Positions 41,492-50,842 of a DNA stretch of 64,000 nucleotides are shown here, one piece after another. Each line of letters opens with the position of its first letter. Position 1 is the first letter of the stretch. The DNA is taken from positions 62,001 to 126,000 of the forward strand of contig NZ_JASCXX010000007.1 of NCBI RefSeq assembly GCF_030012215.1. Direction: 5' to 3'. This DNA is from Anaerobaca lacustris. Lineage in GTDB: Bacteria; Planctomycetota; Phycisphaerae; Sedimentisphaerales; Anaerobacaceae. A model generated the notes under the pieces. That model was not told where the DNA came from, searched no databases, and saw nothing but the letters and a program-made list of their open reading frames with translations. Position numbers and translations under genes: made by a program.

Positions 41492-44406
<2,915 letters not shown>

Positions 44407-44434: not shown

Positions 44435-45544
44435 TCAGCCGAGGTTGATGGGCATCAGAACGTACAGGAACTCCGAGCCACTCTTGATCAGCCCGGGTCG
44501 ATCCGCCTGCCCTAACGCAAGCTCGAACTCCGGCTCGCGTATCACCTTGAGGACATCGAGTAAAAACTGCGGATTGAACCCAATGTCGATCGCTTCCCCG
44601 CTATACTCAATGGGCATGCTGACCTCAGCAGCCCCGGCTTCCGGCGAACTGCCGGAGAAGACCAGCGTGTCGGCTTTCACCGACAGTTTGATGCCCTTGG
44701 ACTCGTCACTGGTCAATAGCGATGCACGACGCACCGCACTCAGCGCGACCTCGGTCGAAAGCTTCACGCTCTTGTCGTAATCTGTCGGGATGATGTCTTC
44801 GTATTTCGGGAAGTTCCCCTCGACCAGATTGGAACTGATAACAACATTAGAGCAACTTATCAATATTTGATTGTCAACCAGCTTCACCGCTACGATTTCG
44901 TTGTCATGGGAGGCGATCTTCTCAAGAAGCGCCATCGTCCTGGCCGGTACGATGATCTTCTGCTCTGCCTGACGTTCTTTTGGGGCCTTGTCGAGCGTAA
45001 CCCGGCAACGCGCCAGTCGCCGTCCGTCCGTCGCCACAAGGAGGAGCTTCTTACCTTTGACCTCCCACAACACACCATTGATCGCGTAGCGGCTACTCTC
45101 CTTGGCCGTGGCGAAGAGACACTGTTGGATCCCCAATTGCAGTTGTTCGAGTGTGATCGTCAAATCGACGTCGCCCTTTTCGAGCGATGGGACTTTGGGA
45201 TACTGGGCGGGGTCCTGACCGTAGATCGTGAAGCGGCTGTCCGCACCGCGAATTTCACAGGTGGTCTCCGTTGCCTCCAGGAGAAGCACATCCTCGGCGC
45301 TCGTACGCACGATGTCGGCGAGGTGGTTTGCCTCAACGACGACTTCGCCCTCGCGTGCGATCTCCACCTCAGAGACCAGGTAATTCAGCCCGACTTCAAG
45401 ATTCGTCGCACAGATCCTGACCTCCTTGCCCGAGGCAGCGATGCGAACGCACTTCAAGACAGGCTTCGGCGTCCGGCTTGGCACCACGGAAATCACCAGT
45501 CCGAGGGCTTCGGCCAGCGCGGCACGGTTGAAAGTGACTCTCAT
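44435..45544 (-). CDS. dnaN: DNA polymerase III subunit beta (sliding clamp)
   Basis: DnaN forms the ring clamp that holds DNA polymerase III on DNA. The 369-residue product begins MRVTFNRAALAEALGLVISVVPSRTPKPVLK and has LVATDGRRLARCR, LVEGNFPKYEDIIP and the C-terminal LYVLMPINLG, all diagnostic of the beta clamp. GAGG lies 7 bases before ATG 45544. It is the promoter-proximal gene of a dnaN, dciA-like, gyrB run reading away from the AT-rich gap. dnaA, the usual neighbour, is absent from this window. Confidence 0.97.
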   Translation of the reverse strand: MRVTFNRAALAEALGLVISVVPSRTPKPVLKCVRIAASGKEVRICATNLEVGLNYLVSEVEIAREGEVVVEANHLADIVRTSAEDVLLLEATETTCEIRGADSRFTIYGQDPAQYPKVPSLEKGDVDLTITLEQLQLGIQQCLFATAKESSRYAINGVLWEVKGKKLLLVATDGRRLARCRVTLDKAPKERQAEQKIIVPARTMALLEKIASHDNEIVAVKLVDNQILISCSNVVISSNLVEGNFPKYEDIIPTDYDKSVKLSTEVALSAVRRASLLTSDESKGIKLSVKADTLVFSGSSPEAGAAEVSMPIEYSGEAIDIGFNPQFLLDVLKVIREPEFELALGQADRPGLIKSGSEFLYVLMPINLG

Positions 45545-45613
45545 GGCAGACCTCTAAACAAAGGGTTCGTCATGCTGTAAACGCGCAGCAGGGTCTTGGT
45601 GAAACAGCCCCAT

Positions 45614-45642
45614 AGTGTAATGAGCGGCTTGATCTGGGGCAA
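45614..45642 (-). promoter_or_regulatory. Candidate dnaN promoter
   Basis: On the minus strand, TTGCCC (45642-45637), a 17-base spacer and TACACT (45619-45614) lie about 70 bases upstream of the dnaN start. Both boxes are four-of-six matches. TTTACA-17-TTTAGA closer to the gene is an alternative. Confidence 0.4.
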
Positions 45643-45765
45643 TCTTTTTCCTGCAAAAGCTCCCCCGGCGTCAAGTTTGCCGGAACCGGGGAATTCAGCA
45701 GCGACTATACAAGAACTGCCCGCTGGATGGGTATGGCGATCCCGGGACCCATCGGTCGATGGTTG

Positions 45766-45774
45766 TGTGAATAA
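45766..45774 (-). promoter_or_regulatory. DnaA box (TTATTCACA)
   Basis: Read on the minus strand this is TTATTCACA, an exact match to the TTATNCACA DnaA consensus, in the dnaN upstream gap. Confidence 0.7.
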
Positions 45775-45914
45775 GGCCGGGTATTGATAAAGATAGTAAG
45801 AGAAGATGGTAGTAGTATTAGTCATATAGCCAGGTATATTGTTAATACTGGCAGGGATGTTTTTATAAGGCCTTGCCACAGCGATAGATGGGTTCTCTTG
45901 TCGTTGTCTACACT

Positions 45915-45923
45915 TGTGGAAAA
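45915..45923 (-). promoter_or_regulatory. DnaA box (TTTTCCACA)
   Basis: Read on the minus strand this is TTTTCCACA, one mismatch from TTATCCACA and in the same orientation as the box at 45766. Confidence 0.6.
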
Positions 45924-46147
45924 ACTGTTAGGTTTGGTGTGCGTGGCCTTGACAAAATCGCCTTTTCCAGGTAACCGGTTGGGTTTGCTTATCTGTTTCT
46001 AACGGAAAGAATCGTGAGAATTAACAGCCAGCGCTCGGTCTCTGTACAGCTTGCCGACGTGCCCTGCGGATTGAGGCCGGCAGAGCGAGCTTGTGACCCG
46101 GATGGTATTGATCGAGTCGATCCAAGGGCATACGGACTTGTGGACGG

Positions 46148-49100
46148 ATGACGATGCAAATGACTGATACCACCGACGCGCAACGGGCAACCTCAAAGGA
46201 CGATCTGTTTGTCGGGATCGACATCGGCAGCAGTGCGCTGCATTACATTGTGCTGGACGCCGAGCGGTCCGTCGTGTATTCGCCGAAGCCGATCATGCAC
46301 TTCGCCAACCCGCTGGGCGCCTTGGCGGAGGCCTGGGGTGACCTGCGGGCTCGGTTCGGTCGCGAGGCGATTCGCAGCACGGCGTTGACCGGAAGTGCAG
46401 CGGAAAGCTTCCCTACGGTCATGGACGGGGCGATCTACGTCTACGACAGTGTCGCGATTCCCAAAGGGGCGGAGGTGATCGCACCGGCGGCGCGCCACAT
46501 CTTCCATATTGGGGCGAAAGACGCGTATTTCTTCCATATCGGGGCCACCAGCGGTCGCCAGGTCATTCGCGAGTGGAGAACGGGCACCAAGTGTGGCGGT
46601 GGTTCGGGCATGCTGATCGAGAAACAGTGCCGCCGGCTGTTCCAGGGTGAGGTTCCAGGCCCGGCTCTGGAGGATGCCGGGGTCGCTGCAGATGACGGGC
46701 AGAGGGCTGCGATCGCCATTCGGAACCGCCTGCGGCTTCAGGAACGCGTGGAGGAGATGTTTCAGCGCGCCGAGAACGAGGCGGGCCAATCGAAGGAGCC
46801 GAGTGAGTTTCTGGCGCGCTGCGGCGTCGTGGTCCAATCCGATCTGATCCACAAGCAGAACGAAGGCGCCACGCGCGTGGACAACCTTGCCGGTCTGTTT
46901 CGGACCGTGGCGCGCAACTACGTTATCGACGTCCTGGGTTCCAGCGAGTTCAGCAGCAACGGCGCGGGCGACGCCATTGCGACGGGCGGCGTGTTCAGCA
47001 ACGACCTCGTGCGCGCGAGCCTGGCGCAACTGCTTGGCACGGGAATCGCCAGGCCGCAGCACCACCATAACGTCGCCGCCGCCGGTGCAGCGCTCAAAGC
47101 GATGGAAGAAGGCAACACGTTCGTTCTCGAGCTTAAGCTGCTTGACACGGTCGCCGAGCACAGCCGGCAGAAGCGCGTGTTTGCCCCACCGCTGAGTGAC
47201 AGTCTGGCACGCGTCCGGGAGCGAACGGAAGAGCTGGCCGCCGAGATTCCGGCCGGCACCGAAGTGGTGCTGGGCATCGACGGAGGCAGCACAACGACGA
47301 AGGGGGCGCTGGTCGAGATTGCCACCGGCAAGCTGCTCGACAAGCTGTACATCAAGACGCACGGCAACCCCGAGGAATCGCTCAAGCGCGTCCTGCGGTA
47401 CCTCTCACGACACAAGGACAACGTGATCATCAGGGGTGTCGGCGCCACTGGTTCGGCCCGAAAGCTGTATGAGAAGATCCTGCTGAGCCAGAAGAAAGCG
47501 CAGCAACTGACCGAGCAGGGTGCGACCCTGACCGACCGTATCACCGACGAGATCACCTGTCACGCGTTGGGCGTCAAGCACTGCAACCCCGAGATCGATA
47601 CGATCTTCGAGGTGGGCGGCCAGGACATGAAGTTCACCTGCTTCTCGGCGGACGGGACCGTCAAAGAGGCGAAGATGAACTACAGTTGCCAGGCCGGCTC
47701 GGGCCAGACGCTGGAGAACATGGCCGACGTGATCAACCTGGACGTCGAGAGCACGCTTCAGGAGGCGGCGCTGCGGGCCAAGCGCGTGCCGATCATCGAC
47801 TCGACCTGTGGCGTGTTCATGGAGATGGACGAGAACCGCCTGATCGCCGAAGGGTTCGGTCGCGATGAGATCGCCGCCGCCATCCTCCGCGGCACCGCGG
47901 CCAGCTACTACTACAAATTCGTCGGCGGCGCCCAGCACGTCGGGTACAAATGCTCGGCCCAGGGCGGCCCGGCGCTCGGCAAGGCCTTCCTCGCCGCGCT
48001 GGCGCAGGTGACGGAGGGCGTCGTCGAGGCGTATCCCCACCGCGAGATGTTCGGTGCCTGGGGTCAGGCCCTCGACATCATTCAGCGCATTGCCGGGCTG
48101 GAAACGGAAGGGAAACGGCATGACACGGCGTTCCGTGGCTGGGAAATCGTCGATATGCCGTTCCAGAAACGCAAGGTCCCCTGTCGCGATCTGTTCGGAC
48201 AGCGCTCCTGTGGCATGCGCGATTGCCAGCTCGAAGTCTTCCACATCGAAGACGACGAGATCATCACGGGCGGCTTCTGCCCGCTCGGCAATTCCGAGGC
48301 CGTCAAGAAGCCCAAGACCAACTACGTCGATCGCTACCATCGCATCTATGAGAAGCATTTCAAGAAACAGGGTTGTCTCCAGAGCGAGCTGGCGTCAGCC
48401 ACGCCCAGCGGCCCGACGGTCGGGATCAAGCGCAGCATGGCCACGCTGGCCGAGAAGGGCATCTGGAGCGCGGCGCTGTTCCGCAAGCTGGGCTTCTGTC
48501 CCGTGGTCTCGCCGCGCAGCGACAGCGAGATCGCCAAGATCGGCGTAGACAACTCGCGGACGGAGTTCTGCATCGCCCGCAAGCTGGCCACGGGCCACGC
48601 CGCCGTTCTGAACGACGACCCGGCGATCGAATATCTGTTCAATCCGAGCTTCATCGAGCAGCGGCGGCCCGAGCGGCCCGACCTGAAGTACTGCATCTAC
48701 ACCGAGTCCGAGGGGTACGTCCTCAACGACGTGCTGTCGCTCGACAAGCACAAGCAGTTCAATCCGATCCTGCACTTTGGCGACCTGGCGCTGCTGGTCC
48801 GTGAGATTCGCAAGGAATTCGCGCGCGTAGGGTTCGCTTTCAGCGACCGCCGAATCAAAGAGGCCATTGCCTGCGCCGACCGCGCCGAGCAGCAATTCAA
48901 GAATGACCTCTACAGCGAAGGCGACCGCTTTCTTCAGCGCATCGAGCGCGACGGGGCCAAGGCCTACGTCGGAATCGGGCGCGACTACGTCCTGCTCGAC
49001 CCGGAGGCCAGTTCGAACTCCGGCTCCATGTTCTCCCAGGTGCGCGGACTGGACTATATTCCGCAGCAGTTCCTCGAACACAAGTTCATGCAGATCCCGA

Positions 49101-50842
49101 TCGACAGTTTCGTCGAGAATGAGTTCTGGGTCCAGAGCGTCAAGATTCTCAAGGCCAACGTCTTCGTGGCCAATCATCCGAACCTCTTCCCGATCCGCAT
49201 GATCAACTTCGCGTGTGGGCCGGACAGTCTGAAGATCTACCAGGAAGAGAAGATCTATCAGGCCGCCGCCAAGCCCCTGCTCGTCCTGGTTACTGATGCC
49301 CAGACGAACAATGCGCCGTTCGTAACGCGTACGGAAGCGCACGAGCGCGTTGTCAGCGAAAGCCATCCTGTGGCCGTGGACATGAAGAAGCTGGAGACCT
49401 ATTCGACAAACAACTACGACAAGCGCACGTGGCTGATCCCATACATGGGCGACGCCAGCTATATGGGGGCGGCCGGCCTGAACCACTTCGGCATCAGCAG
49501 TCAGGTGCTGCCCACGGATACCCCTCGCGGCTACGAGGTCGCGCGGAAGCACATCTACACCGAGGTCTGCTATCCGCTCAAGGGGGTCGTCGGAGACGCG
49601 ATCGGTTTCTTGCAGGAGCAGATCGAAAAGACCAGTCGCCGCGAGGTCGAGGAACGGTACCTCGTGATGCTGCCGACGACGAGCGGGCCGTGTCGGTTCG
49701 GCAAGTACACTGAATTGCTCCAGGAATTCATGCGGCTCGAGGGGCTGGAGAAGATCCCGGTTGTCGGGCCGTCTTCCGAGACCGACTACATCGACATTCC
49801 GCTGCCGCAGGGGCTTCGGCCGTCCGACCGGATGAAGATGCAGCAGATCCTCTTCAAAGGCATCAATGCCTCGGATCTGCTGGAGGACGTCTTGCGGCGA
49901 TTCCGCCCGTACGTCGAGGACAAGGCCGAGGCCGACGCGCTGAAGACGGAGCGGCTTGAAGCCGCCGGGGCCCTCGTCGGCGCGGGCGCCGACACCGCCG
50001 CGCTGGTCCAGTGGGGGCACGAAACGGTCGCGAAGTTCCAGGCCCTCAAGCGGCGACATCACGAACGCTTCCCGCTGGTGCTCTACATCGGCGAGATCTA
50101 CATGCGGCAACATGACGCGTACACCAACCAGGTCATTCGTCAGCTCGAAGACAACCAGTTGGAGGTCGTGCGCGACCCCATCACCGACTGGCTGCTCTAC
50201 GTCAATAAGATGAACGTGCGCAACAACAAGCGCGACGTCGGGTTGGGCCTGCGGTCGTTCGATCTCGGGCGCGCCTGGCGCGCCGCCGGGCAATTGGGCC
50301 AGTCCCTGCTCAAGTCACGGTACATGGACCACGTGGCCGAGAAGCTGGCTGCGCCCTTCCACGAGGTGCTCGAAGGCCGGCATGTCCTGCCGCACCCGAT
50401 GGAGATCATCGAGAAACTCGAACGCGAGCATGAAGGGCATGGCAACATCGAAGGGGAATCGCCTCTGAGCACGGGCATCGCCTATTACTTTATGCACGAC
50501 CTGATCGAGCCGCATAGCGATGCGCTGATCTCCGGCATCTTTCACGTCGGTCCGTTCACGTGCATGCAGGAGGGCGTCGCCACCGCCAAGATCGAGGCGA
50601 TGATGAAAGAGTTCCGCAAGACGAACCCGGACCTCGTGTTCCCGATCATCCACGCCTTCTTTGGTGATTCGCCCAACGCGAGCCTGCCGGCCGAGATCGC
50701 CGTGTTCCGCGAACAATGCTACCAGAAGCGCGAGCTGCTGCGCACCCGCCACGCGGGCACCGGGTCGCACCAGCCTGACATTCGCAGTTGCTCACCCCCG
50801 CGCGCCGGTGTCGGTGCGAGGACCTCAAGCGCTCAGCGCTAA
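46148..50842 (+). CDS. Acyl-CoA dehydratase activase-like giant protein (BadF/BcrA type)
   Basis: The 1,564-residue product joins several parts of the 2-hydroxyacyl-CoA dehydratase system. Two ASKHA ATPase domains of the BadF/HgdC type are present: about 20-335 (FVGIDIGSSALHY) and about 372-690 (VLGIDGGSTTTKGAL, EVGGQDMKF, NYSCQAGSGQTLENMA, DSTCGVFMEMDENRLIAEG). A DUF2229-like domain follows (from about 757, VGIKRSMATLAEKG, with FCPVVSPRSDSE), then a C-terminal region resembling dehydratase subunits (ISSQVLPTDTPRGYEVARKHIYTEVCYPLKGVVG). HgdC-like proteins use ATP and a [4Fe-4S] cluster for one-electron activation under anaerobic conditions. The role of these fused versions is not established. 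The last 30 residues look unconserved. The start has only a weak SD. Confidence 0.88.
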   Translation: MTMQMTDTTDAQRATSKDDLFVGIDIGSSALHYIVLDAERSVVYSPKPIMHFANPLGALAEAWGDLRARFGREAIRSTALTGSAAESFPTVMDGAIYVYDSVAIPKGAEVIAPAARHIFHIGAKDAYFFHIGATSGRQVIREWRTGTKCGGGSGMLIEKQCRRLFQGEVPGPALEDAGVAADDGQRAAIAIRNRLRLQERVEEMFQRAENEAGQSKEPSEFLARCGVVVQSDLIHKQNEGATRVDNLAGLFRTVARNYVIDVLGSSEFSSNGAGDAIATGGVFSNDLVRASLAQLLGTGIARPQHHHNVAAAGAALKAMEEGNTFVLELKLLDTVAEHSRQKRVFAPPLSDSLARVRERTEELAAEIPAGTEVVLGIDGGSTTTKGALVEIATGKLLDKLYIKTHGNPEESLKRVLRYLSRHKDNVIIRGVGATGSARKLYEKILLSQKKAQQLTEQGATLTDRITDEITCHALGVKHCNPEIDTIFEVGGQDMKFTCFSADGTVKEAKMNYSCQAGSGQTLENMADVINLDVESTLQEAALRAKRVPIIDSTCGVFMEMDENRLIAEGFGRDEIAAAILRGTAASYYYKFVGGAQHVGYKCSAQGGPALGKAFLAALAQVTEGVVEAYPHREMFGAWGQALDIIQRIAGLETEGKRHDTAFRGWEIVDMPFQKRKVPCRDLFGQRSCGMRDCQLEVFHIEDDEIITGGFCPLGNSEAVKKPKTNYVDRYHRIYEKHFKKQGCLQSELASATPSGPTVGIKRSMATLAEKGIWSAALFRKLGFCPVVSPRSDSEIAKIGVDNSRTEFCIARKLATGHAAVLNDDPAIEYLFNPSFIEQRRPERPDLKYCIYTESEGYVLNDVLSLDKHKQFNPILHFGDLALLVREIRKEFARVGFAFSDRRIKEAIACADRAEQQFKNDLYSEGDRFLQRIERDGAKAYVGIGRDYVLLDPEASSNSGSMFSQVRGLDYIPQQFLEHKFMQIPIDSFVENEFWVQSVKILKANVFVANHPNLFPIRMINFACGPDSLKIYQEEKIYQAAAKPLLVLVTDAQTNNAPFVTRTEAHERVVSESHPVAVDMKKLETYSTNNYDKRTWLIPYMGDASYMGAAGLNHFGISSQVLPTDTPRGYEVARKHIYTEVCYPLKGVVGDAIGFLQEQIEKTSRREVEERYLVMLPTTSGPCRFGKYTELLQEFMRLEGLEKIPVVGPSSETDYIDIPLPQGLRPSDRMKMQQILFKGINASDLLEDVLRRFRPYVEDKAEADALKTERLEAAGALVGAGADTAALVQWGHETVAKFQALKRRHHERFPLVLYIGEIYMRQHDAYTNQVIRQLEDNQLEVVRDPITDWLLYVNKMNVRNNKRDVGLGLRSFDLGRAWRAAGQLGQSLLKSRYMDHVAEKLAAPFHEVLEGRHVLPHPMEIIEKLEREHEGHGNIEGESPLSTGIAYYFMHDLIEPHSDALISGIFHVGPFTCMQEGVATAKIEAMMKEFRKTNPDLVFPIIHAFFGDSPNASLPAEIAVFREQCYQKRELLRTRHAGTGSHQPDIRSCSPPRAGVGARTSSAQR

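Follow-up and report, generated by a model that had tools for sequence, protein, structure and literature searches.

The intergenic region between dnaN and an activase gene

The stretch of DNA analysed here (the window, 64,000 nucleotides) corresponds to positions 62001-126000 of contig C7 in a 5.73-Mb draft genome of 117 contigs, whose named relatives by dnaN belong to the Sedimentisphaerales/Phycisphaerae, Planctomycetota. As a preliminary description of this DNA had stated, the window contains a gene-free, AT-rich gap (49.4% AT versus 37.5% in the window) with divergent flanking genes, and the order dnaN, dciA and gyrB leftward of it was confirmed by profile matches (Table 1). Homology to gyrB starts near residue 106 of the listed ORF, and the true start of this gene is probably further inside the ORF. 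In the gap (45545-46147), no known RNA family was matched in Rfam.

Table 1. Features of the locus and the two dnaA genes of the same genome (window positions unless a contig is given; G000, source genome)
Feature	Position	Strand	Remarks
gyrB	41492..44296	minus	ORF coordinates as listed
dciA, helicase operator	44089..44406	minus	PF05258
dnaN, sliding clamp	44435..45544	minus	TIGR00663
Intergenic region, very probably origin-bearing	45545..46147	no strand	between divergent dnaN and activase gene
Exact DnaA box TTATTCACA	45766..45774	minus	window sequence
Putative duplex-unwinding segment including trio block	45780..45829	no strand	least stable 50-mer of the 64-kb window
DnaA-trio-like run TAGTAGTATTAG	45810..45821	plus	conserved in relatives; single match in own genome
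Trio block TAGTAGTATTAG-TCATATAG	45810-45829		part of ~130-bp module
Whole E1-E2 module	45810..45938	plus	model R1 E 1.6e-17; leave-genus-out profile E 1.6e-9
Conserved 10-bp spacer TCATATAGCC	45822..45831	plus	between trios and adjacent weak box site
Degenerate box region (order consensus TGTGAAATTGTTAG)	45832..45844	minus	genus keeps only TTGTTA half
E2 composite site TGTGGAAAAACTGTTAG (order consensus TGTGGATAACCTGTTAG)	45915..45931	minus	DnaA box 45915-45923 plus CTGTTAG half-site
One-mismatch DnaA box TTTTCCACA	45915-45923	minus	box half of E2
TTGACAAAAT, probable -35 element	45949-45958		conserved where activase adjoins module
E3 remnant TTAACAG	46021..46027	plus	106 bp from E2
Acyl-CoA dehydratase activase gene (BadF/BcrAD; BcrAD_BadFG and DUF2229)	46148..50842	plus	module neighbour in part of family
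dnaA1 (L001)	G000:C24:68554-69789		canonical; beside ftsY-like gene
dnaA2 (L002)	G000:C16:27151-28488		altered box-recognition residues; beside rplI-like gene

Sequence elements within the gap

The gap holds exactly one exact DnaA box and one box with a single mismatch, both already noted in the preliminary description, which had also proposed a scan for such boxes. Their number is not above chance, given that the 64 kb contain seven matches with at most one mismatch versus 12.5 expected. Box matches alone are not significant; the significance of the site lies in conservation. In a comparison of six genomes of the genus with one sister genus, the trio block and the 45915 box were strongly conserved and the remainder of the gap was not. 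Both elements were present in every genus member examined and recur throughout the order. The TAG run had been described together with a GC cluster on its left; both are there and the run is conserved, but the cluster is not conserved in relatives.

At the exact box, the genus and the sister genus have only TGTGnA in common, and this box may play an auxiliary role at most. As the unwinding box it was rejected: it is only partly conserved and stands on the wrong side of the TAG run, 35 bp away in the 5' direction, given that the polarity of the trio strand (PMC8287927) puts boxes 3' of the run.

An easily melted segment, as is sought in an oriC, is present at the site: the 50-mer at 45780-45829 has a stability of -54.0 kcal/mol, compared with a mean of -76.7 (sd 4.5) over all 63,951 50-mers of the window. 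The start of the trios (E1) and E2 are separated by 105 bp, and E2 and the E3 remnant by 106 bp. This arrangement of three elements at a spacing of about 105 bp, corresponding to ten helical turns, is new.

Conservation of the module across the order

A sequence-only model (R1), built from 44 loci and searched against 61 whole genomes, identified the module of about 130 bp in 58 of these Sedimentisphaerales genomes, usually as one strong match per genome, with one to three weaker additional matches in a few of them. In the own genome its sole match is C7:107810-107938, that is, window 45810-45938. The same segment was matched by a leave-out profile of 19 loci from which the own genus and the nearest sister genus had been excluded (E 1.6e-9), with no other match in the 372 kb of C7, C24 and C16. 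Across the 3.69 Mb searched, nearly all profile matches with E<0.04 lie directly upstream of dnaN, the exception being L187, a locus with 5.3 kb between the module and this gene.

The order consensus runs from an AT-rich stretch through TAGTAGTAGTCATATAG and CCTGTGAAATTGTTAG to E2 and, in many genomes, to E3. Order-wide, E2 is found about 107-110 bp past the trio block. E3, whose box half has been lost in the own genus, occurs in many other genera as a complete inverted copy (CTAACAGGTTATCCACA). Overall, E3 showed 4.5 mismatches versus 7.6 in shuffles (p 5e-9). The E2-E3 distance elsewhere is mostly 104-105 or 115-117 bp, which defines two classes one helical turn apart. Throughout the order the trios have a weak box next to them, and in the own genus this box is degenerate.

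Three shorter extra matches to the origin model were also observed (G028:C21:12937-13045, G028:C77:23397-23504 and G018:C92:12828-12934). They span model positions of approximately 21-129, with the trio part absent, and two of the three lie about 5 kb from a full module on the same contig.

GC skew at the module

The preliminary description had proposed GC skew as a check of the locus. For the own genome this check gave no information, as the genus has almost no replicative skew: contigs C7, C24 and C16 are nearly flat, both raw and after correction for gene strand, and strand-corrected GC3 skew is close to zero left and right of the site. In relatives, however, the skew flips at the module. 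We compared order members only, with one locus per genome and duplicates removed by hand, and strand-corrected GC3 skew rose from negative to positive at the site in 29 of the 34 genomes that carry the module beside dnaN (mean rise +0.092; Wilcoxon p 3.7e-6), compared with 3 of the 9 order members whose dnaN lacks the module (mean -0.048; p 0.012 for the difference). The clearest single case is a 207-kb contig of G056, a clean V with the skew minimum at the dnaN start, where the 80 kb to the left are negative on both gene strands and the 127 kb to the right mostly positive; in G033 and G043 the inflection is likewise at the dnaN start. The skew switch by which an oriC is recognized is thus found in the relatives and the profile is flat in the own genus. 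No clusters of exact DnaA boxes were found near dnaN in the single-contig relatives listed.

The sampled whole-chromosome skew is multi-peaked in G006, G016 and G058, with no single minimum that can be read, and this alternation prevented a global-minimum test. In G058 (L119-L144), G016 (L065-L084) and G006 (L145-L164), strand-corrected skew reaches up to 0.45 locally and its sign changes many times.

Such alternation, locally strong on both gene strands, fits either frequent inversions or several origins, and the latter would make the dnaN gap one of a number of start sites, as in some polyploid cyanobacteria, where irregular skew accompanies multiple origins (PMC7198777). We regard this as improbable, given that the module is essentially single-copy, that G056 has one clean V over 207 kb and that inversions explain the alternating skew equally well.

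Position of the module relative to dnaN, parS and parB

In four closed genomes the module is found away from dnaN, at 755 kb in G022, about 794 kb in G044, 303 kb in G048 and 14 kb in G039, and in G044 and G048 the displaced module lies about 1.3-2.5 kb from parB/parS. This displacement indicates that the module exists independently of dnaN and is not the promoter of that gene.

The activase gene on the right flank had been taken as a newcomer in the preliminary description. This does not hold, as the linkage is old: within the genus and in a number of further genera the gene has the module as its neighbour (62-89% identity), diverged homologues (about 25%) occupy the same module flank in other genera, and the module still adjoins the activase in G022 despite the distance to dnaN in that genome. 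The sequence TTGACAAAAT probably serves as the -35 element in the promoter of the activase gene.

The conserved block could alternatively be the promoter or DnaA operator region of dnaN or of the activase and not an origin. It lies between two divergent promoters, the motif TTGACA at 45949-45954 is conserved in genomes with an adjacent activase, and promoters are also regulated by DnaA boxes. Against this, the module is separated from dnaN in the four genomes mentioned above and stands by parB in two of them, it is also found in genomes that lack the activase or have a distant homologue in its place, and the skew inflection at the module would be left unexplained, all of which makes a purely regulatory block very improbable.

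An oriC usually lies within about 100 kb of parS/parB. Within the window, only one parS match with three mismatches was found near the gap; the only good parS pair of the own genome (C7:157848 and 158119) and parB (C7:158432) lie outside the window, 50 kb to the right of the module on the same contig. Module and parB are 1-111 kb apart in 9 of 13 genomes, and in the single-contig genomes G003, G006, G016 and G022 parS or parB is 0.6-1.3 Mb from the module. The own parS pair is inverted and sits immediately upstream of parB (G000:C7:157848-158962).

Two DnaA paralogues encoded away from the module

The window contains no dnaA, and the source genome encodes two full-length copies, dnaA1 on contig C24 and dnaA2 on contig C16. 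Both recur in nearly all relatives checked, and in none of 16 genomes checked (0/16) is dnaA adjacent to dnaN or the proposed origin. The earlier statement that dnaA has moved away therefore stands in the sense that neither gene is at this site in any genome checked, and in no further sense.

Copies of dnaA1 mostly retain the canonical GGRDHTTV motif, and those of dnaA2 carry GNKNHATV or GGKNHATV/GGKNHSTV. In most dnaA2 copies the changes are D433N, T435A and those at the equivalents of L422/P423 (E. coli numbering), at residues that contact the DnaA box in E. coli DnaA. A second DnaA with altered box-reading residues is new.

Upstream of dnaA2, all of the seven genomes compared (7/7) have composite-like sites with 3-5 mismatches at a distance of 86-313 bp, against a background of 0.13 per 660 bp; the same comparison gave only two 5-mismatch matches upstream of dnaA1, both box-less. 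This pattern of sites suggests that DnaA2 may be tied to the composite-site system. A doubtful extension, which we rate as unlikely, is that two DnaA paralogues read the origin, with DnaA1 recognizing the TTATCCACA half of the composites and DnaA2 their TAACAG half. Two hints point to it: the genus that lacks the box half of E3 has kept the TAACAG half at the exact phase, and the composite-like sites stand upstream of dnaA2 and not of dnaA1. That TAACAG is purely a DnaA2 site was rejected, since a weak tandem DnaA box separated by 2 bp from the strong one (e.g. TTATTAACA) would also account for this half.

A skew signal beside a remote dnaA, which the preliminary description had named as evidence against an origin at the gap, did not appear: across seven genomes there was no consistent rise at dnaA1 or dnaA2, with dnaA1 of G048 as the single exception. 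That the origin is at dnaA1 or dnaA2 and the dnaN block a relic or DnaA-titration site is hardly tenable, for although both genes are unlinked from dnaN, a composite site is also present upstream of dnaA2 and the own-genome skew does not point to the dnaN gap, these skew profiles speak against it, R1 has no match at the dnaA loci of the genomes searched, and a relic is not expected to be conserved and almost single-copy in 58/61 genomes.

Interpretation as a chromosomal origin

We consider it very probable (about 0.92) that the gap next to dnaN serves as oriC, the origin of chromosome replication, as the preliminary description had inferred. This reading is based on the order-wide, essentially single-copy module, on the GC-skew inflection found in relatives at the module but not at dnaA, on the co-location with parS/parB and on the unstable trio region. 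Counting against it are the flat skew of the own genus, the presence of a single exact box, the degenerate box on the trio side, the multi-peaked chromosome skew and the distant parS/parB in four genomes.

For this organism we infer DnaA binding, looping, unwinding and firing as follows. DnaA would dock on the E2 composite box (45915-45931), on the E3 partner site near 46021 and on the weak site at 45832-45844, which would be placed on one helical face in steps of about 105 bp (ten turns). DnaA bound at these sites would loop the DNA and would spread from the weak site onto the TAG strand at 45810-45821, and the unstable segment at 45780-45829 would then open and have the helicase loaded there, DciA being encoded next door. 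The phased loop in this model is proposed after the distal box of B. subtilis, which acts via a loop in helical phase (EMBO J 2019, PMC6669920).

With the model, which places the origin in 58/61 genomes, drafts included, it becomes locatable in an order where base-composition maps alone fail. This would allow the correct rotation of genomes and peak-to-trough estimates of growth rate in uncultured planctomycetes, as well as a direct test of how an origin works that has two DnaA proteins and a weak box next to its trios.

Comparison with known origins

In the basal unwinding system (BUS), the trios, with the reading 3'-GAT-5', make up the 5' tail of the strand that carries them, and a DnaA box is found some 10-13 bp away (Pelliciari 2021, PMC8287927). 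The published search rule for this system asks for at least three DnaA-trios (3'-NAN-5') and for a DnaA box with at most two mismatches within 16 bp of the trios (PMC8287927). The trios are provided by TAGTAGTATTAG at 45810-45821; the box is not, as the trio-proximal site is degenerate in the genus and its order consensus, TGTGAAATT, has about three mismatches. The weakness of this box across the order and its degeneration in the genus are the reason why the rule failed, and the site would be BUS-like in its working even so, with strand opening presumed to follow the same course.

As in BUS and B. subtilis, the TAG strand reads 5'-unstable segment-trios-TCATATAGCC-weak box-3', with the same polarity and a spacer of about 10 bp, and a further box stands about 100 bp off, which matches the helically phased distal box of B. 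subtilis. In contrast to both, the spacer (TCATATAG) itself shows strong conservation, the box nearest the trios is a weak one that has degenerated in the genus, inverted composite 17-mers at least 105 bp away (E2 and E3) act as the strong boxes in the proposed scheme, and neither dnaA is located at the origin. The conserved spacer, the weak trio-proximal box, the inverted composites at ten-turn spacing and the paired DnaAs define the site as a variant. Part of this picture is already known, since trio origins are widespread and an origin near dnaN with dnaA elsewhere has been described (PMC7198777). In the part of the literature covered by our search, no mapped or described Sedimentisphaerales/Phycisphaerae origin was found.

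With the dnaA-dnaN type origins of most bacteria, the site has in common that dnaN and gyrB adjoin it, but dnaA is absent from it in 16/16 genomes checked. The origin of Synechococcus elongatus PCC 7942 is near dnaN, at the GC-skew shift, with dnaA elsewhere (PMC7198777). The origin proposed here resembles it in being near dnaN at a skew shift with dnaA encoded separately, and differs from it in the three-element module, the ten-turn spacing and the two DnaA paralogues, and also in that the module can be separated from dnaN and located next to parB.
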